From IMG/VR virus record IMGVR_UViG_3300048592_001397, positions 1-23,817 of that record: 23,817 nt of DNA. One strand, given 5' to 3'. A model generated the notes under the pieces. That model saw only the letters and a list, made by a program, of their open reading frames with translations, was not told the DNA's origin and ran no database searches. A program made the translations under genes and the position numbers. Of this stretch, positions 1 through 23,817 are shown piece by piece; position 1 is the stretch's first letter, and each line of letters begins with the position of its first letter. Source of the DNA: a virus.

Positions 1-726
1 TTATGAGGCAGCCGAATTATTAGAGCCAACTCTTTTTGGATAGGGTTCAATATAGGGTTTTAGCTTTCGCATTATCTCATTTCTCACAGCTTTCCCGCCT
101 ACAGGGAAAATATATCTGTGCTTTGGTTGGATATCCTGCGTAGTAAATTTAGGGTCAAATTTTTTCAAAGTCTCCTTCTTGCGAGACCCAAAGATGCGAT
201 AGACTTCCTTTGGATGATACTTTCTGCCTTTTATGAAGTAGATCTTTGCTCCCCCAGGACAGGTTTTTCCAAAGTAGATTGCATTGCATGCTTGATATAT
301 TGTACCAATTTCTCCAGCTTCTGGGTCAGCATATGCGACAACCGCTTTACAGCGTTTACTATGCTGCAATTTCCTTAGCGATGCCGATATCAATTTGCTA
401 GGAACCCATGTTGGAGCCCAAGGAGCTGAGGCACCTCTGCACAGTTGTAGAATCGTTCCAGAGTATTCGCTTCCAAGATATCTCCTGTACAAATCATTTG
501 ACATGGGCGGCCCAAAACCAACAACTCCAGCTAGGCGATCGGAAGCAAAAAGTCCGTAGAAAAATATTGCCGATCCAATATTTCCTAGCCATTCATACTC
601 AAGAATAAAAGGAGATGCGGTCTTAAAATCTATTTCCTTTATGATTGCTTCAGACGGGTTAATTTCTATTTTCTCACTTTCTGCTGCTTTTGACTTCTTG
701 ATTTTGAACTGCCAGCATTCTTTCAT
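1..726 (-). CDS. Mom-like DNA-modification protein (GNAT-like fold)
   Basis: This 241-residue protein resembles the phage Mu Mom family. Mom proteins modify adenines in phage DNA to a carbamoylmethyl-type base, which shields the DNA from many restriction enzymes. The assignment is from recalled family motifs: EYEWLG near residue 43, CRGASAPWAP near 97-106 and AYADPEAGEIGTIYQACN at about 131-148, the last being highly characteristic of Mom-like proteins. The basic C-terminus would suit DNA contact. The frame is open upstream to 789, but I chose the ATG at 726-724 because it overlaps the upstream stop (TGA at 725-723) as ATGA, which implies translational coupling. The stop is at the first bases of the window. 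In Mu, mom is translationally activated by the zinc-finger protein Com. Here it is instead coupled to an unrelated membrane-associated protein, with a zinc-ribbon gene nearby on the other strand. Substrate and exact chemistry are inferred. Confidence 0.82.
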   Translation of the reverse strand: MKECWQFKIKKSKAAESEKIEINPSEAIIKEIDFKTASPFILEYEWLGNIGSAIFFYGLFASDRLAGVVGFGPPMSNDLYRRYLGSEYSGTILQLCRGASAPWAPTWVPSKLISASLRKLQHSKRCKAVVAYADPEAGEIGTIYQACNAIYFGKTCPGGAKIYFIKGRKYHPKEVYRIFGSRKKETLKKFDPKFTTQDIQPKHRYIFPVGGKAVRNEIMRKLKPYIEPYPKRVGSNNSAAS

Positions 727-1814
727 AGTATTTTTTTTCCGGTCATACGGAGTAGGAAATATAGAACAATGGCCTGGGAAAAATTGCATGCGACCTTAAA
801 ACTGTCTCCGAGAGGCTTTGTGACGTCGGTTGTTGCTCCCCAAGATGCCAAGGCATAAAGTAGTATCAGAAGATAGACCTTTGTATTGCGAAACTTGTCC
901 GTGAATACGAACTGGATTGAAGCATCAGGTCCGAGAATTTGTTTTCCTTGCTGATTGGATTTGTAGATAATATGAAAGGACCCTTGTGTTTCATCTGTTC
1001 TGCTCTTGGGAATCATTCCATAGTTGAATGTGTCTATATGCGAGTCAACTTTTTGCTCCTTGGAACTTAAGATAACAACATCAGTTGTAGGCGACACTTC
1101 GACAGTCGCCCCATGTGTCGGATTCTTGCTTTGCTCGGGATATATATAGTCAATATCGATTTTCATAATCCCATCAATCGGAATCTCAATTGTCGATGCT
1201 GTGTCTTCTGCTTTTTTGTTGATCGTTCTATATCCATCGACTGATGAGCGTAAAAAAATCACTTCTATTCCAGGAGGGTTAAACGATCTTGTCTTGCTAA
1301 TTGCCTCTATTGCCTCGGTAGAGTATTCCCGTCCAGTCTGAATTATCTTTGAATCGGTTATGACGTCGTTCCCGTCTGTAGCATAGATGCCGTCATTTTC
1401 GTTTATTGGATCAGGCTGCCCACTGGCATCTTTCTGAAGGGTGGGCAAAATATTCCTAAGTTCGGTCGGAAGTTTGCAGGAAAACTGCGCTAGGTCACTG
1501 GTATAAACAAAATCTTCAAGCTCCACATAGAAGTATGCATAAGGGTCATTCTTAACACATTTTATGAGTTTGCCGCGTCTGATGGGATGATACTCATACC
1601 TGACTCCTCCGTTTCCCCATCTATCAACGAATATAATTGTTACATCACTGCCTATTTTATTTTGAAAATTTGGGATATCTCCTTCTTGCATGTTTGTTCT
1701 TTTTCCAGTGTATCTGTAGCGATATTTATTGATAGAGCCATTTGGTAAATAGAACGTATTGAGGATATTCTTCAAGTATTTCGGTCTGTATGCAGAATTG
1801 AAAAGATAGATCAA
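723..1814 (-). CDS. Unrecognised protein with C-terminal membrane region, coupled to mom-like gene
   Basis: I do not recognise a named family for this 363-residue protein. The start is TTG at 1814-1812, six bases after a very strong AAGGAGGG ribosome site (complement of 1821-1828). The N-terminal third (residues 1-110) is rich in aromatic residues and predicted strands (YLFNSAYRPKYL, YRYRYTG, IIFVDRWGNGGVRYEYHP) and looks like a small beta-barrel recognition or docking domain. The middle is polar and contains a beta-rich stretch with IEIPIDGIMKIDIDYIYP. The C-terminus carries two hydrophobic segments, at about residues 308-327 (VYLLILLYALASWG) and 346-358 (AIVLYFLLRM), which would anchor it in the membrane. 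It shares an ATGA overlap with the Mom-like gene, so the two are probably made together. A membrane-associated accessory or defence role is only an inference from context. Confidence 0.75.
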   Translation of the reverse strand: MIYLFNSAYRPKYLKNILNTFYLPNGSINKYRYRYTGKRTNMQEGDIPNFQNKIGSDVTIIFVDRWGNGGVRYEYHPIRRGKLIKCVKNDPYAYFYVELEDFVYTSDLAQFSCKLPTELRNILPTLQKDASGQPDPINENDGIYATDGNDVITDSKIIQTGREYSTEAIEAISKTRSFNPPGIEVIFLRSSVDGYRTINKKAEDTASTIEIPIDGIMKIDIDYIYPEQSKNPTHGATVEVSPTTDVVILSSKEQKVDSHIDTFNYGMIPKSRTDETQGSFHIIYKSNQQGKQILGPDASIQFVFTDKFRNTKVYLLILLYALASWGATTDVTKPLGDSFKVACNFSQAIVLYFLLRMTGKKIL

Positions 1815-1820
1815 CGCTTG

Positions 1821-1828
1821 CCCTCCTT
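1821..1828 (-). promoter_or_regulatory. Strong Shine-Dalgarno fixing a TTG start
   Basis: On the minus strand this reads AAGGAGGG and ends six bases before the TTG at 1814. It is the best ribosome binding site in the left part of the window and is the reason for accepting the non-ATG start. Confidence 0.75.
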
Positions 1829-1962
1829 ATCTTCGTGGATATTTCGGAGTTGTGATCCCTGCACTTAGTTAAGAATTTCTTCGCACTCAGTGGACATTAG
1901 TTATGACATTGCCTCTCATAGGAAACATCTTGTAGAAGGTAAAAGGAGGCAGCCAGTGGCTG

Positions 1963-2103
1963 ATGCGGTGTGTATCTGCGGAACTGCAAGATAAGAATGA
2001 CAACCGTTGCGGCTGCTGCAAGGGATATCACCCAGCAACCGTGGGCGAGACCATCGGATGCGTGGACTGTGGAGAGGACTATCTCGTCTCATTTGTTGTG
2101 TGA
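1963..2103 (+). CDS. Small zinc-ribbon protein, possibly Com-like
   Basis: This 46-codon ORF encodes a protein with two CxxC pairs: RCGCCK at residues 15-20 and GCVDCG at 32-37, separated by 13 residues, a typical zinc-ribbon layout. An AAGGAGG ribosome site lies at 1943-1949, 13 bases before the ATG; an in-frame CTG at 1960 would give a tighter spacing. Mu Com, the translational activator of mom, is also a small protein with RCxxC followed about 16 residues later by CPRC, so a distant Com-like role is possible given the Mom-like gene about 1.2 kb away. However, it lies on the opposite strand and lacks other Com residues. It could equally be a late-gene regulator or an unrelated zinc ribbon. 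The spacing does not match Ogr/Delta proteins. Function is unproven, but the gene looks real from its ribosome site and cysteine pattern. Confidence 0.55.
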   Translation: MRCVSAELQDKNDNRCGCCKGYHPATVGETIGCVDCGEDYLVSFVV

Positions 2104-2340
2104 GTTGTCGAGCTAAGGCTTGCCCTTGTGACTTTCGTGAGCGCAAACACGTAGAGCCAAATACTGAAAGAAAAATGATGCTTTACCAAAAAAAACTTGC
2201 ATTCGTCACCAAACCAAGACTGGCGCATGGGTCCTTTCCTCAATAAAATCATAGGGGGTGACGAGGCACCCCTGGCGCTCGGGCGATGATGAAAATTTTC
2301 GAGGTGACTGACTGCAAACGCCCAAATCATTCCTGGCATT
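2104..2340. other. Non-coding region upstream of the terminase genes; candidate cos/late-leader region
   Basis: No convincing gene is seen in these 237 bases. The stretch contains an A-rich segment near 2168-2200 and a GC-rich dyad at 2254-2273. In lambda-type phages the packaging start site (cos) lies directly upstream of the small terminase gene, so this is where a cos site or a late leader would be expected. I cannot identify cosN, cosB or a late promoter by sequence alone. Confidence 0.35.
2254..2273. other. GC-rich dyad (possible cos element or RNA hairpin)
   Basis: GGGGTG at 2255-2260 pairs with CACCCC at 2267-2272 across a six-base loop (ACGAGG), with a possible extra G-U pair at the ends. 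No run of T follows, so it is not an intrinsic terminator. Its position about 70 bases before the small terminase start, its GC richness and its two-fold symmetry fit a cos element, but no match to a known cos sequence is claimed. Confidence 0.3.
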
Positions 2341-2997
2341 TTGATCCACTCAACATCACAGAAAAGCAAAATCGACTTGGCTAAGCAATTGAATACAGTA
2401 GAGTTTGCGGATCTTTTGCAGATTTCAAAGCAAACCGTAAGCAAAGCGATCAAGAGCGGCAGGCTCTCCAAATCAGTCAACCGCGTGGAAAACAACTACC
2501 TGATCGATGCTGCTCTCGGCGTGCAGGAGTTCTTTCAAAACGCGAGGTTGGACAAGGATCACACCGATCGCCATCACCTTCCCAAGCAATCAACCAGTCA
2601 CCCTTCTCATGAAGATGTGATGCCAACAAGTGAGTCCATCGCCATGGATCGTCACTACACTGCCCTCCTTAGCAAGCTGGCCTATCTGGAGAAAGCAGGC
2701 ACTCTCATTTCCGCCGAGAAATATCGAATCGAAGCATTCCAGGCCGCGCGTGCTACCAGGGATGCGGTCCTCTACACACCACAGGCAATATCCGCCGAAA
2801 TCAAAAGGCAAGTCCGCTCCTTTATCGCGGATAGGTTTGGTGAACAGCAGATCGATATCCATGAATACGAAATTGATGATCTGGTGGCCCGTATTCGCAT
2901 CGTCATGAAAGATGCATTGACCAGGGCTCTTCGTGACCTCGCTGACTCTCGCTTTACCGCTTCTGCCACTTCCTCTGAGGATGCTCCCGCTGACTGA
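2341..2997 (+). CDS. Small terminase subunit, Nu1-like DNA-packaging protein
   Basis: This 218-residue protein is the likely DNA-recognition subunit of the terminase. An N-terminal winged-helix/helix-turn-helix is visible at residues 19-45 (FADLLQISKQTVSKAIKSG), as in Nu1-type proteins, which bind packaging sites. The central part (about residues 100-150) is helical and charged and would suit oligomerisation and contact with the large subunit. The TTG at 2341 is taken as start, although no good ribosome site is visible; TTG at 2377 is an alternative and would still keep the HTH. The 3' end overlaps the large terminase start by 17 bases, the usual nu1-A arrangement. It is somewhat longer than lambda Nu1 (181 residues). 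Confidence 0.7.
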   Translation: MIHSTSQKSKIDLAKQLNTVEFADLLQISKQTVSKAIKSGRLSKSVNRVENNYLIDAALGVQEFFQNARLDKDHTDRHHLPKQSTSHPSHEDVMPTSESIAMDRHYTALLSKLAYLEKAGTLISAEKYRIEAFQAARATRDAVLYTPQAISAEIKRQVRSFIADRFGEQQIDIHEYEIDDLVARIRIVMKDALTRALRDLADSRFTASATSSEDAPAD

Positions 2998-4834
2998 TCG
3001 CGTGTATTCTGACCTTGTTTCCGTGACCGATGACTTCGTGCTTGGCACTCTGCCCAACCCCGATATCTCGATCATCGAACATGCGTCTCGAAATCTCTAT
3101 CTTGTCAGCGGCAAGAATCCCTTCCCAGGTTTGGTCGACTTCGACCGAACACCTTACCTCCGCGAAATTCTGGATGCGCTGATGCCCGACAATGGGGTGG
3201 AGAAGGTCGTCCTGCAGAAAGGTTGGCAAACCGGCGGAACGCTGTCAGCTTTGGCATTTATGCTATGGGTGATGGACGTGAACCCGGCACCTATGCTTAT
3301 CGTCCAACCTTCCGATGAACTTCGCGCCAAGTTCTCAAAGCAGCGTATAGCCCCGATCGTGGCCAACTGCAAATCCCTTCAGGGTAAGATCAAGGATTTA
3401 GAGCGCTATAAGCGCGACAAGACCAAGGAGAAGGATACGATCATCACCAAGCTCTTTCCTGGTGGCTTTCTGAACCTTGGGACCAGCAAAAGCGCAATAT
3501 CGCTGCGATCAGACAGCATTCAGTTCATCGTGTTCGACGAAGTGTCGGCCTATGATCTGGATTGCCAAGGTGAAGGCGATCCTTGCGGAATTGCCATTGG
3601 CCGAACCAGTGCTTACGAAGGTCGCAAAAAGATCTTCTATATCTCCACCCCGACAATCGCTGGCCAGTGCCGCATCGAGCAGGAATATCTCACCACAGAC
3701 CAGCGCAAGTTCTTTGTCCCCTGCTTATCGTGTGGCGAACTGCAGCTTATCGTGTGGAAGCAAATAGACTTTTCGGGAAAGGTTCCCGTTTTCCGCTGCA
3801 TTCGATGTAACGCAAGTCACTATGAGCAGGACAAAACTGAAATGCTTGCTGGAGGGCAATGGCGTCCAACGGCTGCCGCATTATTCCCCAATGTTCGCGG
3901 CTATTTTTTACCGGCTCTCTATGCGCCGGTCGGGATGTACTCCTGGAAAAGCTGCGTGGATCTCTTCAAAAAGGGGTATGAGAACCCCGTCGAGCTTAAG
4001 GTCTTCGTGAACAATTGCCTGGGCGAGACCTGGGAGGATCGCTCGGTCGCTTCTTTGGATGCCGGGGATATCCATGCACTTGCCGAGGATTATGATCCTA
4101 CCACCATTCTTCCCCCTGGTGCTGCTCTAGTTACCGCTGGGATAGATACACATCCAAACCATATCAACATCTGTACAAGGGCATGGGGTCGGGACGGTGA
4201 AAGCTGGGTGCTGGACTACTGGGTTATTTATGGCGACGGCAACGAGATGTCGACCTGGGCTCGCGTCGAGGAAAAGCTCTTGACCACCTATACTCATAGT
4301 CGCGGCGAAAGGCTTCGTATTGCAGCTGCTAGTGTCGACACCGGGGGGCATACAACCGCTGCCGTTTATGAATTCTGTCGCCCCAGATTGGGGGACTGCG
4401 TGATTGCCATAAAAGGCATCGGTAACCCTTCGGCCCCTATCATTGACAAACCCACGCTGCTCAAGGACGAGAATGTCTACCTGTTCAGGGTCGGCAAGCT
4501 TGCCACACACGGGCGCTTATTTTCCGACATTGCACGATCGATCAGCAGCCGCAAGGAGTACCGGGAGAAAGCAAGAAGCGGCATAAAGACCGAATATCGC
4601 GGGGCACAAATCATCCATTTTCATAAAGGTCTGGATCCGTCTTTTTACAAGGAGGTTTCCGCACCCAAGGCACGCTGGGTCAAACGCGAGGGCGGGTTCC
4701 AGCTGGCTTATGAATCGACTGATGGTGTTGCCGACCACGCCCACGACTGCCTTCGCTATGCCGACGCCGCCCGACATTTCCTGGACATCAATATCGACAG
4801 GCTATGTGACACGCTGGAGGGAAAAGTGGCATGA
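2981..4834 (+). CDS. Large terminase subunit, lambda GpA family
   Basis: This 617-residue protein is the packaging ATPase and endonuclease. It cuts concatemeric DNA and pumps it through the portal. The Walker A region is at residues 79-87 (QKGWQTGGT) and lacks the classic GKT, which is common in GpA proteins. Walker B is at 182-187 (FIVFDE). Two CxxC pairs (248-251 and 273-276) form the zinc element often seen between ATPase and nuclease domains. The C-terminal nuclease domain has acidic motifs GIDTH (D389) and SVDTGGHTT (D453), and a late HDCLRYADA segment. The ATG at 2981 is preferred over an upstream in-frame ATG at 2933, which would add a leucine-rich stretch overlapping nu1. The stop overlaps the next gene as ATGA. 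Confidence 0.95.
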   Translation: MLPLTDRVYSDLVSVTDDFVLGTLPNPDISIIEHASRNLYLVSGKNPFPGLVDFDRTPYLREILDALMPDNGVEKVVLQKGWQTGGTLSALAFMLWVMDVNPAPMLIVQPSDELRAKFSKQRIAPIVANCKSLQGKIKDLERYKRDKTKEKDTIITKLFPGGFLNLGTSKSAISLRSDSIQFIVFDEVSAYDLDCQGEGDPCGIAIGRTSAYEGRKKIFYISTPTIAGQCRIEQEYLTTDQRKFFVPCLSCGELQLIVWKQIDFSGKVPVFRCIRCNASHYEQDKTEMLAGGQWRPTAAALFPNVRGYFLPALYAPVGMYSWKSCVDLFKKGYENPVELKVFVNNCLGETWEDRSVASLDAGDIHALAEDYDPTTILPPGAALVTAGIDTHPNHINICTRAWGRDGESWVLDYWVIYGDGNEMSTWARVEEKLLTTYTHSRGERLRIAAASVDTGGHTTAAVYEFCRPRLGDCVIAIKGIGNPSAPIIDKPTLLKDENVYLFRVGKLATHGRLFSDIARSISSRKEYREKARSGIKTEYRGAQIIHFHKGLDPSFYKEVSAPKARWVKREGGFQLAYESTDGVADHAHDCLRYADAARHFLDINIDRLCDTLEGKVA

Positions 4835-5040
4835 AAACATATAGAGAGCAGCTGGATAGCGTCCAGCGAGCCATTGAAGCTATTGAATCAGGCGGTCAGG
4901 AGTTTGACCTGGAAGTGAATATGAACAGACGAAGCGTCAAGCGCGGTGACCTGAAGGAACTCTACCGACGTGAAGCCTTTCTGCGCCGCATGGTTTCGCG
5001 TGAAGGGGGATCTGATATTGAGTTCGTGGTACCAGGATAG
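4831..5040 (+). CDS. Head-to-tail joining protein, gpW-like
   Basis: This 69-residue protein sits exactly where lambda gpW lies, between the large terminase and portal genes. gpW attaches below the portal after DNA packaging and prepares the head for tail joining. The sequence starts with a helix (YREQLDSVQRAIEAIESG), followed by a short strand region (QEFDLEVNMNRRSVKRG) and a second basic helix (DLKELYRREAFLRRMV), matching the helix/beta-hairpin/helix plan of gpW. Its length agrees with lambda gpW (68 residues). The ATG overlaps the terminase stop by four bases, indicating coupled translation. Confidence 0.82.
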   Translation: MKTYREQLDSVQRAIEAIESGGQEFDLEVNMNRRSVKRGDLKELYRREAFLRRMVSREGGSDIEFVVPG

Positions 5041-5048
5041 GACAGCAA

Positions 5049-6515
5049 TTGACCGGATATATTGAAACAGAGGCTGGTGTTCTCATACCGGAAAGCCCGT
5101 ACCGATCGACATCCCGAAGCAACCCCGCTGTTGAGCATTGGAATCCACCTGACGCCAGTGCCGACGAGGCGATTCTGCCCGCTCTTTCTGCCTTGCGGAA
5201 TCAGAGCCATGATCTCGATCGTAACGAAGCCATTGCAAGAGGGGCTGTCGAGAATACGGTCAGTAACGTGGTAGCGGATGGATTGAGGCCACAAGCGAAG
5301 CTGGATCATGAGGTTCTAGGAATCTCGGAGCAGAAGGCTCGGGAGTTTGAGAAAGCAGCCGAACGAATCTTTGCGCTTCATGCCAGCTCAGTCTATTCGG
5401 ACTTTACAAGGTCAAACCCCTTCGGGATCAATCAGGCCATAGCGCTGCGTTCGGTACTGCTTGATGGAGACTGCCTCATTCTCAAGCGCTATAAGCCGGG
5501 ACCGGGTGCCATCCTTGGAACCTGTATCCAGATCATTGAAGGCTCCCGTCTGTGCAACCCTGACCTTGGAAGTGCGGACAAGGACATCAGAGAGGGGGTT
5601 GAGTTGAACGAAGATGGCGAGGCTGTGGCCTATCACATCGTGAGCCGGGACAGGATGCAAACCCTCCAGCCGGAGAGAACTATACGCATTCCACGTTTCG
5701 ACACGGAAGGCAATCCGATCGCACTTCATGTCTTCCACAGCCGCCTGCCTGGACAAACACGGGGGGAACCGTTCCTTGCTCCTGTCGTCGAGCGATTCAA
5801 GCAGCTTAGTCGCTATACGGAAAGCGAAGTTATGGCGGCAGTAATCAGCGCTTTTTTTAGTGTATTCGTCACGAGTGAAGGGCACGGGCCATTCGGGGAT
5901 CGAAAGGACATCCACCTTGCATCGCGGCAGGCGAACATGCAAACCAGATCCAAAGAGAAGTTTGGGTCAGGAATGCTGCTCAATATGCTGCCTGGAGAAA
6001 AGGTGGAAACACTTACACCGGGTCGACCAAATGCCAACTATCAGCCGTTCATACAGGCCGTACTGCAGCAGATCGGTATGGGACTATCCATTCCTTTCGA
6101 GGTTCTGACCCAGAATTTTCAGTCATCGTACACAGCAGCTCGTGCTGCGCTGCTGGAGGCATGGAAGTTCGTCATGATCCGTCGTGCTTGGACTATTTCC
6201 AAGATTTGTCAGCCTTTTTATGAATGGGCAATCGGAGAAGCAGTTGCAAAAGAGATGTTGTCAGCACCTGACTTTTCCCATGTGGTTAAGCGCAGAATTT
6301 ATACCTCTGCAGAGTGGGTGGGACCATCTATGCCTTCGATTGATAGATTGAAGGATGCGAAAGCAGATGAAATAAGACTTGTAACCCGCACAGCATCCAG
6401 AAGGTCAATTATTGAAGAGGCGGGTAAGGATTTTGAAAAGATGGAACGGGAAATTCAAAGCGAGCAAACTCTGGTCGTAGAACTTCTGCGCCCTACACAC
6501 AAGGATCCAGGCTAA
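5049..6515 (+). CDS. Portal protein, lambda GpB family
   Basis: This 488-residue protein forms the dodecameric DNA gate at the capsid vertex. Lambda-type portal signatures are visible: NEAIARGAVENTVSNVV near residues 58-74, FTRSNPFGINQAIALRSV near 118-135, the DGDCLI segment, HVFHSRLPGQTRGEPFLAP, and an IPFEVLTQNFQSSYTAARAA-type segment near 345-365. The start is TTG at 5049 with AGGA-type ribosome sites just upstream (5034-5043). The C-terminus after about residue 475 (TLVVELLRPTHKDPG) differs from the usual portal ending and abuts a minus-strand accessory gene whose stop overlaps the portal stop. A decayed second copy of the portal 3' end lies about 1 kb downstream, so this gene end is probably a recombination joint. 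Confidence 0.93.
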   Translation: MTGYIETEAGVLIPESPYRSTSRSNPAVEHWNPPDASADEAILPALSALRNQSHDLDRNEAIARGAVENTVSNVVADGLRPQAKLDHEVLGISEQKAREFEKAAERIFALHASSVYSDFTRSNPFGINQAIALRSVLLDGDCLILKRYKPGPGAILGTCIQIIEGSRLCNPDLGSADKDIREGVELNEDGEAVAYHIVSRDRMQTLQPERTIRIPRFDTEGNPIALHVFHSRLPGQTRGEPFLAPVVERFKQLSRYTESEVMAAVISAFFSVFVTSEGHGPFGDRKDIHLASRQANMQTRSKEKFGSGMLLNMLPGEKVETLTPGRPNANYQPFIQAVLQQIGMGLSIPFEVLTQNFQSSYTAARAALLEAWKFVMIRRAWTISKICQPFYEWAIGEAVAKEMLSAPDFSHVVKRRIYTSAEWVGPSMPSIDRLKDAKADEIRLVTRTASRRSIIEEAGKDFEKMEREIQSEQTLVVELLRPTHKDPG

Positions 6516-7252
6516 TTGATTGGAAAAAATGTGGTCGTTGTTTTCATCACAAGCTCAGGCTTTTCTCTTAATACGTTTTGCTCCCAAGTCAAGGAAGCTT
6601 GAATCACAGTCCCACACAATGGACAGAAAGGACGAAAAATTCTATCATCTCGTATGCCGCCTGGAAGAAATGGCGTAAATGACCACAATCTATTGCAATA
6701 ATATTCAGGAAGTATGTTGCACGAAGAGCACCTCGCGGATGTTTGATCGATCTCTTTCAAAGTTTTTCTATAAATAGATCTAGCTACTCTCGTTGAAACC
6801 TTATCAAGAAGAATCTGCTCTTCAGCACCAATTGAATAATTTTGGCTGATGAATTGTTCCACAATTGTTGGATTTACAGTGCTCAAATTCCGAAATAGAC
6901 GGCGTGCTTCTTGATGAACAGAGGAGGCTTTTTCGATCATTTGAAGATGTCTTGCAATGCGGTCGTCGATCTTTAAATACATTTTTACTATAGTTGCAGC
7001 AATCAGGAAGAAACCCAAAACCTGGAACGATATTTCACTTATCGCTCCAATTTGGCTGCTACCAAAAATTGTCTTCGGAACAAAATAGAGAATTGGAACA
7101 ATCAACGATAGACATTCGACAGAATGTGAAACAAATTTTGGCCACCGAAGAAGGTATTTGTGGGTTATCATTCGACGGATATTGAAAGAGAAGATTTTAT
7201 ACAGATTATTCTTGTAACTGGCGCTTTGATCGGCAGACACAAAGTACTCCAC
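6512..7252 (-). CDS. SLATT-like two-TM membrane protein with CxxC zinc-binding tail (mobile-element family)
   Basis: This 246-residue protein resembles the membrane proteins often annotated as mobilome CxxC-CxxC proteins, related in plan to SLATT proteins. It has two hydrophobic segments (about residues 44-62 and 72-92), a charged helical stretch directly after TM2 (KIDDRIARHLQMIEKASSVH), and a terminal cysteine module: C175xxC178, C186, C210xxC213. The text ARSIYRKTLKEI before the first CxxC fits the recalled family pattern, but the spacing between the CxxC pairs (31 residues) is longer than the usual 11. SLATT proteins are thought to act as membrane effectors in defence or conflict systems, often beside nucleotide-signalling enzymes; none is seen here. 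The start is GTG at 7252 with no clear ribosome site. A minus-strand sigma70-type promoter lies at 7303-7331. The gene points against the late operon, as expected for lysogenic cargo. Confidence 0.6.
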   Translation of the reverse strand: MEYFVSADQSASYKNNLYKIFSFNIRRMITHKYLLRWPKFVSHSVECLSLIVPILYFVPKTIFGSSQIGAISEISFQVLGFFLIAATIVKMYLKIDDRIARHLQMIEKASSVHQEARRLFRNLSTVNPTIVEQFISQNYSIGAEEQILLDKVSTRVARSIYRKTLKEIDQTSARCSSCNILPEYYCNRLWSFTPFLPGGIRDDRIFRPFCPLCGTVIQASLTWEQNVLREKPELVMKTTTTFFPIN

Positions 7253-7572: not shown

Positions 7573-7613
7573 TATCTAGACACTTCCGCTGGTTCTTAAA
7601 AAGGAGAGTCCCG

Positions 7614-7844
7614 TTAGCTCCTGTATGTAGAGGCGGAAACTTCGACTTGGAGTATTGTCTCCGCAACCGAAGCATCATTCGGATGGCTAGCGTTTGACAA
7701 TGCAAGCTGATGGGGCTTGATAGACTTTTCCAGCTCAGCGTTTAGCTTATGGTAAACTATAAACTCATCTTTGTTGAGCATATCAATTCGCCTAATCCAA
7801 GAGCCATGAGCCATGCGATCAGTTTTGTCATTTTCATTCTTCAT
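7614..7844 (-). CDS. Small hypothetical protein
   Basis: This 76-residue ORF (83 residues if started at the in-frame ATG at 7865) lies alone in the accessory region on the minus strand. The predicted protein is hydrophilic, with a helical middle (MLNKDEFIVYHKLNAELEKS) and no recognised domain. AAGGA immediately precedes the ATG at 7844 and TGAGGA immediately precedes the ATG at 7865; both spacings are tighter than ideal. It may be a real small accessory gene or a chance ORF. I do not recognise its function. Confidence 0.3.
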   Translation of the reverse strand: MKNENDKTDRMAHGSWIRRIDMLNKDEFIVYHKLNAELEKSIKPHQLALSNASHPNDASVAETILQVEVSASTYRS

Positions 7845-7912
7845 TCCTTTTCCGTTGAGAAACATTCCTCAGACGGACTGATCTAGCAATTGAAGATGAA
7901 AAAGTCAGTGTC

Positions 7913-7927
7913 ATGGCCGTTGGCCAT
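7913..7927. repeat. Palindrome upstream of a promoter
   Basis: ATGGCC, GTT and GGCCAT form a perfect six-base inverted repeat. It ends 16 bases before the -35 box of the promoter at 7944-7972, so it could be an operator site. It lies between the minus-strand small ORF and the plus-strand secreted-protein gene. Confidence 0.35.
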
Positions 7928-7943
7928 AGAAAGTACTATGAAG

Positions 7944-7972
7944 TGGACATACCTTGCTTGAATTCCCATAAT
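7944..7972 (+). promoter_or_regulatory. Sigma70-type promoter for the secreted protein
   Basis: TGGACA (7944-7949) and CATAAT (7967-7972) are separated by exactly 17 bases, each matching the consensus at five of six positions. Transcription would begin near 7979, about 37 bases before the ATG at 8016. This is the best promoter match I found in the window and suggests expression independent of the phage late operon. Confidence 0.6.
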
Positions 7973-8015
7973 TTCCTCAACCTTTATTAAAAAATTTTGT
8001 GAACGAGGTGCTTCA

Positions 8016-8549
8016 ATGAAAAGATCTGTGATGATGGGATTGCTTTCGATATCCGGAATCGCCTTTGCAAAACCTGGAAAATTAACACACATGCACGAAT
8101 CGTATCCAGACCCAGGCATAAAGTGTGTCCAGCTCCAAGGGCTTTGGGAGGGGGAATGCACAGAGAGTGGAGCGATGGTTGCAGCGCGGTTACAAGTTTT
8201 TCAAGATGGATGCACTGATCTTGCCTTTTACGACTTTGACTATCCAATTCCAGTTCACTATAAGTTTGGCAGGATTAACACAACAGGAAATTCGCCAGCC
8301 TTTAAGTCATTCCATAGCAGCACGTTCTATTCGGAATGGTCTGAAGATCAGAAGGCTTTTTCCTCCAAGGGCTATGGAAGTTCCCAGTACACATATTCAA
8401 GCAAGCCGGTCACTAATAGCGTAGAGTTTAACTTTACGGCAGCCCTCAATGGAGAGGAGCTGCTAACCGAATACGAAAGCCGACTACCAAATTCAACAGG
8501 TCCGGGATCTTCATACAGGTTGAATTGCACATATAGAAAATCCAGGTAA
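8016..8549 (+). CDS. Secreted hypothetical protein (lysogenic-conversion candidate)
   Basis: This 177-residue protein has a clear signal peptide, MKRSVMMGLLSISGIAFA, with likely cleavage after AFA at residue 18, so it should be exported to the periplasm or beyond. The mature part is rich in aromatic and polar residues and appears all-beta, with four cysteines that could form disulfides (C37, C48, C66 and one near the C-terminus in LNCTY). The pattern LQGLWEGECTESG resembles the first strand of small lipocalin-like or beta-barrel proteins, but I cannot assign a family. A GAGGTG ribosome site lies about seven bases before the ATG and a good promoter lies upstream. Exported proteins without a role in virion assembly, inserted in the late region with their own promoter, are typical morons. 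Function unknown. Confidence 0.7.
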   Translation: MKRSVMMGLLSISGIAFAKPGKLTHMHESYPDPGIKCVQLQGLWEGECTESGAMVAARLQVFQDGCTDLAFYDFDYPIPVHYKFGRINTTGNSPAFKSFHSSTFYSEWSEDQKAFSSKGYGSSQYTYSSKPVTNSVEFNFTAALNGEELLTEYESRLPNSTGPGSSYRLNCTYRKSR

Positions 8550-8650
8550 AGCGCAAGTCGCTGGAGTCTTCTGGCAATCATCACCAGGAACTACACGTTT
8601 TCTGGGGATTTTTTACAGTCTCTATCTGCGCAAAGATACCACGACTGCAA

Positions 8651-21745: not shown

Positions 21746-21782
21746 ATCCATGGCTCCCATTTTAGGAATTAAAGAGAGAAGA

Positions 21783-23087
21783 ATGTTTAGAAAGATTTGT
21801 TTTTGTGCCCTGATTTTAGCCGGGCTCGTACCTGAGGTTGGACTTTCGCAGGCGGAATTTCCAAATGATCGAATCGATATTGATTTCAATATCCTGCCTT
21901 CAAATGAATTCGTAAACGAAGCCGGTGGCCGCGCCATCGTCATCAGAAGAAAGCCCCGTGGTGTGAGGCGCTGCGACACCTCCGATGATTGCCCGCCAGC
22001 CATGATTATCAATGTTGATAACGGCAATACCAATATCAAGGGCAAGACGAATGTCAACGCCCTCTATGTGAATGGTCGCCCCATCATTGGCGAGACAGGG
22101 GAATGGCTTGGATCGGTGGAGAATATGAAGGGACCTCAAGGCGATCCCGGTCCACAAGGTCCGCAAGGCAGCGGCTGCAGAGTTGAGGATGCATTCATTG
22201 TCTGCGGAGACTACAGAATCAGCTTTGAAACCTTGCGCGGTCCCAAAGGTGATCAGGGTGATCCAGGACCACAGGGGCCACAGGGGCCACAGGGAGTCAG
22301 AGGTCCACAAGGATTGACAGGCCCCAAAGGCGAAATCGGTAACACTGGTCCCATTGGGCCTTCCGGTCCAAAAGGTGATTCCGGCGAATCCTGCAAAGTC
22401 CTCGATGGGCAAATTATCTGCGGGGCTCAGAAAATTTCCATCGAATCCCTTCGAGGTCCACAAGGCACGGAAGGTCCAAGAGGACTTAAAGGTGATAAAG
22501 GGGAACCCGGAGCGGGCTGCAGAATTCAGGATGGCTCGATCCAATGCGGCGAGTTTCAAATTGCCCTTGAATCCTTGAGGGGACCAATGGGCAATCCAGG
22601 ACCCGCTGGCGCAACTGGACCAAGAGGCGAAAGAGGCGAGATGGGTCCGCAGGGTTTGAAAGGCGATAAGGGGGACATAGGCGACAAAGGAGATTCCGGT
22701 CCAACCGGTCCAACCGGTCCAGCAGGAGTGAAAGGCGACGCTGGACCGAGAGGCTTTAGCGGCAGTACCGGCCCACAAGGACCAAAGGGGGATACAGGAG
22801 CCACGGGACCACAAGGTTTTAAAGGTGACAAAGGCGATAAGGGCGATCCTGGAGCACCTGGGCGAAACGGATTTGCCTCCTGCCGGTCTGTGACAAAGGA
22901 ATTCAAATTCTACGTTGAAGTCGTCAGTTGCGACGCTTCCGAAATTGTAACGGGAGGGGGCGCAAGCTGCATAACCGGAGTGAGCGTGAAATCAAGCGGG
23001 CCATCTGGAAATGGCTGGCGAGCGCAATGTACCGACCAGGCAGCCGCGTTGATGAACTCAGTTACAGCGATTTGCTGCAAGATGTAG
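21783..23087 (+). CDS. Collagen-like protein with signal peptide and cysteine-rich modules
   Basis: This 434-residue protein has long Gly-X-Y collagen repeats (e.g. [19 protein letters not shown]). Three similar cysteine modules interrupt them, with first Cys at about residues 132, 204 and 246: [GE][GS]C[RK] then about 9 residues to CG, then [IF]..ESLRGP-type text. The C-terminal 70 residues ([37 protein letters not shown]) form a Cys-rich knob that probably seeds trimerisation. The ATG at 21783 is preferred over 21750 because it begins an apparent signal peptide, [19 protein letters not shown], with likely cleavage at SQA/EF, and follows a GAGAGAAGA purine tract. A cytoplasmically assembled tail fibre would not need a signal peptide, so this may be an exported surface protein rather than a virion fibre. 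It is the last gene before a terminator. Confidence 0.85.
22266..22292 (+). repeat. Short in-frame tandem repeat in the collagen-like gene
   Basis: Three nearly identical nine-base units (GGACCACAG, then GGGCCACAG twice) encode the glycine-proline-glutamine run. Nine-base units preserve frame, so slippage would change fibre length without breaking the protein. Confidence 0.6.
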
Positions 23088-23176: not shown

Positions 23177-23500
23177 ATGCCGACACAAAAGAAAAATATG
23201 CATCAAGCCTTGGAACGTATAGGACCGAGGATTATAAGTTTTCTGGCAGACACGGGAAAGCCGGTTAACAAAGAATGCATACTGCAGTCTGTGACTGGGC
23301 GCCGCCAGTATATTCTGGCCACTCTTAAGACTCTGGTTCAAATGAAAAGAGTTGGACTCTCTGGAACGGGAGTTCGATCCGATCCCTTTCTGTACTCCGT
23401 TAAATGTTTACCAGAGGGGTCACCCTATAGTGAATGGCCCCACAGCGAAAGTTTCAAACTGGATACAGCCTATGATGATTTCCTGGAAATAACGGTATGA
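23177..23500 (+). CDS. Probable winged-helix DNA-binding protein
   Basis: This 107-residue protein starts at ATG 23177 (an open frame extends to 23141; a later ATG at 23198 is also possible). It contains a winged-helix-like segment: HQALERIGPRIISFLADTGK, then PVNKECILQSVTGRRQYILA as the likely HTH, followed by the wing (MKRVGLSGTGVRSDPFLYSV). The C-terminal 35 residues are acidic and unstructured. It sits just downstream of the late terminator, so it begins a separate unit, and its stop overlaps the next gene as ATGA. Regulatory or replication roles are both possible; I do not recognise the family. Confidence 0.55.
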   Translation: MPTQKKNMHQALERIGPRIISFLADTGKPVNKECILQSVTGRRQYILATLKTLVQMKRVGLSGTGVRSDPFLYSVKCLPEGSPYSEWPHSESFKLDTAYDDFLEITV

Positions 23501-23817
23501 GCATCATTTCCTTTGTTGATCAGCTTTCAGATAAAGGAATCACGTTAGCTTTAGACGGCGAAGAGTTGAAGCTCAGGGGGAATCGGAGCGCGCTAACGCC
23601 AAGCTTGCTTGAAGACGTCAAGAGCCGAAAAACAGAGATTGTCTCCCACTTGGAATCGCTGCGAATCAGCGGTGATGTAAGAAGTCCGAAAGCAGAACCC
23701 TTTCAAAACCGAGTATTTGAACTTCCCGGCGGAAAAACGGCCACCTTTACCAAGCAGGAATTCCACGAACTGGTGGAAGCTTTCAGGGTGCTGCACGCTT
23801 GGCAATATGAAAAATAG
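23497..23817 (+). CDS. TubC N-terminal docking-domain-like small protein
   Basis: This 106-residue protein ends exactly at the window edge (stop TAG). Residues 1-53 match the TubC_N docking-domain pattern: IISFVDQLSDKGITLALDGE, LKLRGNRSALTPSLLEDVKS and a following helix (KTEIVSHLES). In NRPS/PKS enzymes this fold mediates subunit docking, but stand-alone copies also occur in mobile elements, where their role is not established. The C-terminal half (VFELPGGKTATFTKQEFHEL, VEAFRVLHAWQYEK) is a separate helical part. The ATG overlaps the wHTH gene stop, so the two are coupled. No NRPS context is present. Confidence 0.6.
   Translation: MSIISFVDQLSDKGITLALDGEELKLRGNRSALTPSLLEDVKSRKTEIVSHLESLRISGDVRSPKAEPFQNRVFELPGGKTATFTKQEFHELVEAFRVLHAWQYEK

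Follow-up and report, generated by a model that had tools for sequence, protein, structure and literature searches.

The gene pair at the left end of the analysed DNA (the window, 23,817 bases, which is a whole IMG/VR virus record) encodes what by sequence and predicted fold is a complete, intact Mom-type enzyme that has a GNAT fold and retains the catalytic serine of phage Mu Mom, together with an upstream 363-residue protein, P0002, for which the searches returned no relatives. The reading that we favour, and to which we would give an even chance of being correct, is that the two genes were acquired by a temperate tailed phage as an anti-restriction cargo (moron) operon, located in a cos-side site before the small terminase subunit gene (terS), and that translation of mom is gated by P0002. 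Counted in favour of the cargo-operon reading were the identity of Mom, the anatomy of the pair, its AT-rich composition, the conflict genes that kin phages carry in the same stretch, and the anti-restriction effect and toxicity of Mom in Mu. Counted against it were the lack of relatives of P0002, the commonness of ATGA overlaps, the weakness of the hydrophobic segments in P0002, a cargo site that is not exclusive, and the existence of kin in which such genes were not recognised.

Table 1. Features of the gene pair and its surroundings, in window coordinates.
Feature	Position	Strand	Basis or remark
P0002, 363-aa orphan ORF, upstream gene of the pair	723..1814	-	ORF read; TTG start, TGA stop at 725-723
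mom, predicted DNA adenine-modifying GNAT-fold enzyme, 241 aa	1..726	-	ATG start, TAA at 3-1; Pfam, PHROGs, predicted fold
ATGA overlap, mom start and P0002 stop	723..726	-	Read from sequence
Strong Shine-Dalgarno AAGGAGGG, 6 nt 5' of the P0002 TTG	1821..1828	-	Read from sequence
A8 tract at the junction	731..738	-	Sole run of at least 8 A on the window minus strand
P0002 hydrophobic segment 1, residues 313-331	822..878	-	Kyte-Doolittle maximum 1.46
P0002 hydrophobic segment 2, residues 341-359	738..794	-	Kyte-Doolittle maximum 1.22
Com-like zinc-ribbon ORF at the edge of the cargo site, read divergently from the pair	1963..2103	+	Without the first CPxC seen in kin
terS, conserved gene that borders the cargo site on the right	2341..2997	+	phrog_57, terminase small subunit, 8.9e-14

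The original prediction had described the two reading frames as overlapping in ATGA and as sharing one strong ribosome site, and both statements agree with the sequence (Table 1): AAGGAGGG stands before the TTG start of P0002, and the mom start is preceded by CCGGAAAAAAAATACT and has no Shine-Dalgarno sequence of its own. An alternative mom start, an ATG at 789, would add 21 residues to the enzyme. When the 1,092 bases of the P0002 ORF were shuffled in 1,000 trials, the longest open run was 160 codons; since no shuffle exceeded this length, compared with the 363 codons observed, the ORF is not a product of chance. The GC content of the pair (41% and 40%, with 0.403 for P0002) is well below the 52% (0.517) of the structural genes. 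A promoter and terminator scan gave one promoter-like site against 5.3 expected, and a repeat search produced nothing of note. The left edge of the record coincides with the complement of the mom stop codon and the right edge with another stop codon, and such paired stop-codon ends were seen in none of the 11 kin records whose end bases were compared, by eye only. Provirus callers trim at gene borders, and the record ends look like the result of such trimming, so genes to the left of mom, perhaps belonging to the same operon, may be missing.

The earlier assignment of the downstream gene to the Mom family was borne out by profile and fold comparisons alike. Pfam PF25680 (Mom) was matched at 5.3e-29 with 101.8 bits against a cut-off of 27.1, residues 28-231 aligning with positions 3-202 of the 202-position profile, and the 241-residue product matched phrog_1384 (Mom-like DNA modification protein) at 8e-36. 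Relatives were found by tblastn in 255 phage records, each with less than 60% identity, and a search of IMG/VR with an alignment of six Moms yielded 574 matching stretches, the best 80 of which were kept as Mom loci. Five residues (R97, S110, Y144, Q145 and N148) were invariant in 22 out of 22 aligned Moms and D134 was nearly so, with S110 aligning with the catalytic S124 of Mu Mom. The predicted structure (pLDDT 85.7) had as its best PDB match 8bv8 (E 3.8e-13, TM 0.62-0.73), an entry entitled 'phage Mu protein Mom inactive mutant S124A', and the same entry was the sole match at E up to 0.01 (2.6e-31) when the alignment profile of the Moms was compared with PDB sequences. A full-length profile match, a GNAT-type fold, the catalytic serine and the conserved R, D and Y are thereby all present, which makes this an enzyme of known kind; only its partner P0002 might be new.

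Few DNA modifications protect against a wide range of restriction enzymes simultaneously, and the one made by Mom is among them. By analogy with Mu, the window enzyme would modify adenine in phage (and host) DNA, and this adenine modification would block restriction enzymes, whether encoded by the host or by rival elements. In Mu itself, Mom renders the DNA refractory to host restriction and is lethal when over-expressed (PMC4461284).

Two observations were made on the surroundings of mom genes in general. When 50 Mom records were searched with phrog_2, a large terminase was found in 22, and Mom lay at most 4 kb away in 8 of these 22, several of the records being short, which favours small distances. 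Furthermore, a ParB-like gene (named by eye) overlaps or adjoins Mom and is followed by the terminase genes in L033, L051 and L063, giving a recurring order of ParB, Mom and terminase.

In Mu, mom is paired with com, as the original prediction had stated: com (1269-1457 of locus L019) precedes mom (1378-2103), which starts inside it. The window pair resembles com-mom in that a Mom-family enzyme of the same fold and with the same catalytic serine is encoded by a gene whose start overlaps the upstream gene. It differs in that this upstream gene is the 363-residue orphan P0002, whereas that of Mu is the 62-residue Com, and in that the Com-like ribbon of the window phage family lies on the other strand, the window copy without its first CPxC. 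No match to the Com zinc ribbon was obtained for P0002 in Pfam, PHROGs or NCBIfam, and the pair is not a com-mom pair in this sense.

The frequency of start/stop overlaps was surveyed in the 80 Mom loci (the best 80 of 574), 77 of which contain an intact Mom ORF and three of which do not. In 13 of the 77 intact loci, the mom start overlaps by four bases the stop of an upstream ORF of 100 residues or more, and in 23 of the 77 that of an ORF of 40 residues or more, the upstream genes being of varied kinds. Since four-base overlaps are this common beside Mom, the ATGA overlap says little beyond placing the two genes in the same operon. What is special to the window pair is that the upstream gene is long, is an orphan and bears the sole good ribosome site. 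Translational coupling of mom to P0002 is supported by this anatomy, as read from the sequence. Because Mom is toxic in excess, as reported for Mu, mom would be translated only by ribosomes finishing P0002, and P0002 would act as a gate in the way that com does in Mu. If P0002 does gate or join Mom, it would represent a second solution beside Com; to our knowledge, how phages other than Mu keep Mom from killing the cell has been little described.

It is possible, and in our estimation rather unlikely, that P0002 and mom are cargo genes without a functional relation, placed on one transcript by ordinary operon packing, with P0002 unlinked to DNA modification. The overlaps with assorted upstream ORFs of at least 100 residues in 13 of 77 intact loci are what such packing would give, and neither phmmer nor tblastn placed a relative of P0002 beside any of the 80 Mom loci (best 80 of 574). 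However, since mom lacks an individual ribosome site and its enzyme is toxic in excess in Mu, coupling to P0002 should be under selection, and the foreign base composition is common to both genes, which also argues against this alternative.

The setting of the pair was compared with that in related phages. The kin set comprised 24 records obtained from relatives of the large terminase subunit (TerL), the window aside; a 25th match (L115, 27% identity) was excluded from all counts. TerL is about 95% identical in three of the 24, and terS is 91-94% identical in L012 (the same record as L002), L003 and L013 (the same record as L004). Homology between the window and L002 starts near 2121, just right of the pair, and nothing in the 24 kin loci matches the P0002-mom pair itself. 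Before terS, L002 carries a methylase and the type I restriction-modification genes hsdR-hsdM-hsdS, L004 a T5orf172/MUG113 nuclease-like gene, L005 an m5C methylase and an SNF2 helicase, L007 the Thoeris genes (ThsA 3e-123, ThsB 6e-78), L010 a PglX-like methylase, L103 AbiTii with a DUF3800 gene, and L107, L111 and L112 ArdA. Profile-confirmed defence or anti-restriction genes were thereby found in 8 of the 16 kin with at least 1.5 kb before terS (L002, L005, L007, L010, L103, L107, L111 and L112). Left outside the eight were L004 (nuclease domain only), L009 and L110 (judged by eye to carry genes already scanned in neighbours) and L104 (MmeI-type restriction-modification more than 10 kb away, L118). 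In L008, L102, L104, L105 and L109, few of whose ORFs were scanned, no such genes were recognised within about 10 kb of terS. The count of 8 out of 16 shows a cargo site and not an exclusive one, because the choice of kin ORFs to scan was made by eye, several kin have a cargo in common, and the gap between the portal and protease genes also holds such genes, as in L004, where a type IV restriction-like gene (7592-8623, plus strand; PADLOC mREase_IV, 4.6e-24) lies in that gap.

On the far side of the cargo, endolysin-like, RusA-, SSB-, helicase- and primase-like genes (named by eye) were found in L002, the only record in which the left border was read; with early and lysis genes beyond the cargo, the site is therefore placed inside the phage, between the lysis genes and terS. 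With variable conflict genes enclosed by conserved borders, the stretch before terS qualifies as a defence/counter-defence hotspot. A lambda-type gene order places cos beside terS, and from the order of its genes the window phage would likewise have cos there and would be temperate. The arrangement is reminiscent of the cos-side antiviral hotspots of P2 and P4, in which variable defence cargo lies between conserved phage genes by the packaging genes (PMC9122126). In comparison, the window phages are a different group with lambda-type terS and terL, their site lies between lysis genes and terS, and it holds both defence and anti-restriction genes. A terS-side site with restriction-modification, Thoeris, AbiTii, ArdA and Mom genes in one phage group offers a practical hunting ground for more defence and counter-defence genes.

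Several cargo genes of this phage group deserve mention in their own right. In L005, a single run on the minus strand (285-6991) comprises the m5C methylase, the SNF2 helicase, a ParB-like gene and two ORFs without a profile match, possibly an undescribed multi-gene defence system. In L007, an apparently complete Thoeris pair (1448-2829, minus strand; ThsA with a macro domain and the TIR protein ThsB) is found on a phage contig. An AT-rich (39% GC) cargo gene of the window (6512-7252, minus strand) lies between the portal and S49 protease genes, a second cargo site of the group; its product matched NCBIfam mob_CxxC_CxxC at 3.5e-13 (below the cut-off of that family) and, weakly, SLATT. Between the portal and protease genes of L002 (14180-17281), chemoreceptor-like and CheY-like cargo genes were seen (named by eye).

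The small Com-like ORF at the flank of the cargo site (Table 1) was considered as a partner of mom and rejected, being divergent from the pair, kept in kin without mom and interrupted in some of its copies. These copies were located in L002 (8013-8171), L004 (2129-2287), L104 (8734-9042) and L105 (8931-9086); the frame is open in L104 and broken by in-frame stop codons in L002 and L004, which gives the ORF beside terS the look of a decaying gene. The window ORF had no Com-family profile match at E up to 1, and it is probably not part of the system.

When P0002 was compared with Pfam, PHROGs, NCBIfam and PADLOC, no family rose above threshold, and the same four collections gave no match to a nuclease or other known-effector profile; PADLOC-DB returned no family for either P0002 or Mom at E up to 1. 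Relatives were found neither in GenBank phages (tblastn at E up to 1), nor in PLSDB plasmids (tblastn), nor among PDB sequences. Short exact patterns found none in IMG/VR (six peptide patterns and N-terminal patterns) or in GTDB genomes (peptide patterns), and a degenerate DNA pattern for FNSAYRxxYxxNxL had no matches in IMG/VR. The best tblastn result against the 24 kin loci was E 0.32 over 30 residues. A search of 100 whole virus records (80 with Mom, and 20 of the 24 kin) gave no match in any record at E up to 0.1, an empty answer that shows little without a positive record, and a relaxed tblastn of the N-terminus gave six scattered partial matches at E 6-10. Two candidate families were discarded: phrog_30351 (E 0.02, residues 3-102), which was matched in none of eight kin records and in one of 14 control genomes (Methanosarcina), and Pfam SRAP (0.067 and 0.026), which remained under the family cut-off. 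P0002 is by these sequence comparisons an orphan in the collections searched and, since it has no relatives there, its role is read from its position alone.

The original prediction had also given P0002 C-terminal membrane segments, and this found only weak support: two hydrophobic stretches are present, but they are weak, with maxima (Table 1) below the cut-off of 1.6 on the Kyte-Doolittle scale over 19 residues. Three Lys or Arg residues occur in the 18 residues before the first segment, two between the segments and three in the stretch of 8 residues that starts at the end of the second. Given the positive-inside rule, this distribution favours a cytoplasmic location for the large domain and the C-terminus. 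The beta-rich N-terminus of the original prediction is conjectural, as an AlphaFold2 model of P0002 alone reached a mean pLDDT of only 32.9 and gave no usable fold. In the cargo-operon reading, P0002 would consist of a cytoplasmic domain tethered to the inner membrane through a C-terminal hairpin, with an activity most likely accessory to modification.

A two-gene conflict module had been put forward originally, in which Mom marks self and, in its explicit form, a membrane-anchored P0002 acts as a sensor or effector that harms cells or DNA without the Mom mark. The identity of Mom, the coupling judged by anatomy and the conflict setting (restriction-modification, Thoeris, AbiTii, methylases and ArdA in kin) stood up to analysis, but P0002 as the other half of such a module is not supported so far, and we consider the module improbable. 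Effectors often combine a cytoplasmic domain with two hydrophobic segments, and the cargo site is common to restriction-modification, Thoeris and AbiTii genes, both of which would suit a module of this type; the lack of any effector or nuclease profile match and of relatives for P0002 does not, nor does the presence of pure anti-restriction genes (ArdA) in the same stretch. A restriction-modification system pairs a nuclease with a modifying enzyme, and no nuclease was recognised in P0002; more genes could lie past the record end. A self-marking Mom with an attacking partner has already been predicted in print, for Mom domains of jumbo phages that are fused to REase-fold nucleases and regarded as restriction-modification-like (PMC7824862). 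As in the window, a phage there combines Mom with a second function; the jumbo-phage fusion, however, is to a recognisable nuclease, unlike the separate window partner, which has no nuclease similarity. Searches of the open-licence PMC literature yielded no description of a membrane-type partner in a Mom operon, and PMC5512222 makes no mention of Mom.

About equally improbable, if not slightly more so, is a combined proposal in which P0002 senses or attacks DNA without the Mom mark, is made in lock-step with Mom and is sometimes fused to it by a -1 frameshift at the junctional A8 tract, incoming DNA being marked or judged at the membrane. The P0002 frame ends in GGA AAA AAA ATA CTA TGA, and a -1 slip on the A8 tract would lead into a P0002-Mom fusion frame that is open for 604 residues. 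The tract falls within the 69-nt stretch that permits fusion and is unique on its strand of the window (Table 1), and the chance of such an A run there was 0.0125 in a first-order simulation. That this slip by itself yields small amounts of a fusion, whose modifying enzyme would be tethered to the membrane and act at the point of DNA entry, is very unlikely, as the slip was noticed after the fact, no stable structure was detected downstream of the tract (z 0.42 and 0.55), no relatives are there to show conservation, and an A-rich leader could simply aid initiation of mom.

At the other end of the window, a collagen-like protein with G-x-y repeats and a signal-like N-terminus is encoded after the tail genes (21750-23087, plus strand). 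At the right edge lies a gene with a TubC_N docking domain (23497-23817, plus strand; Pfam 3.8e-12), at the stop codon of which the record ends.
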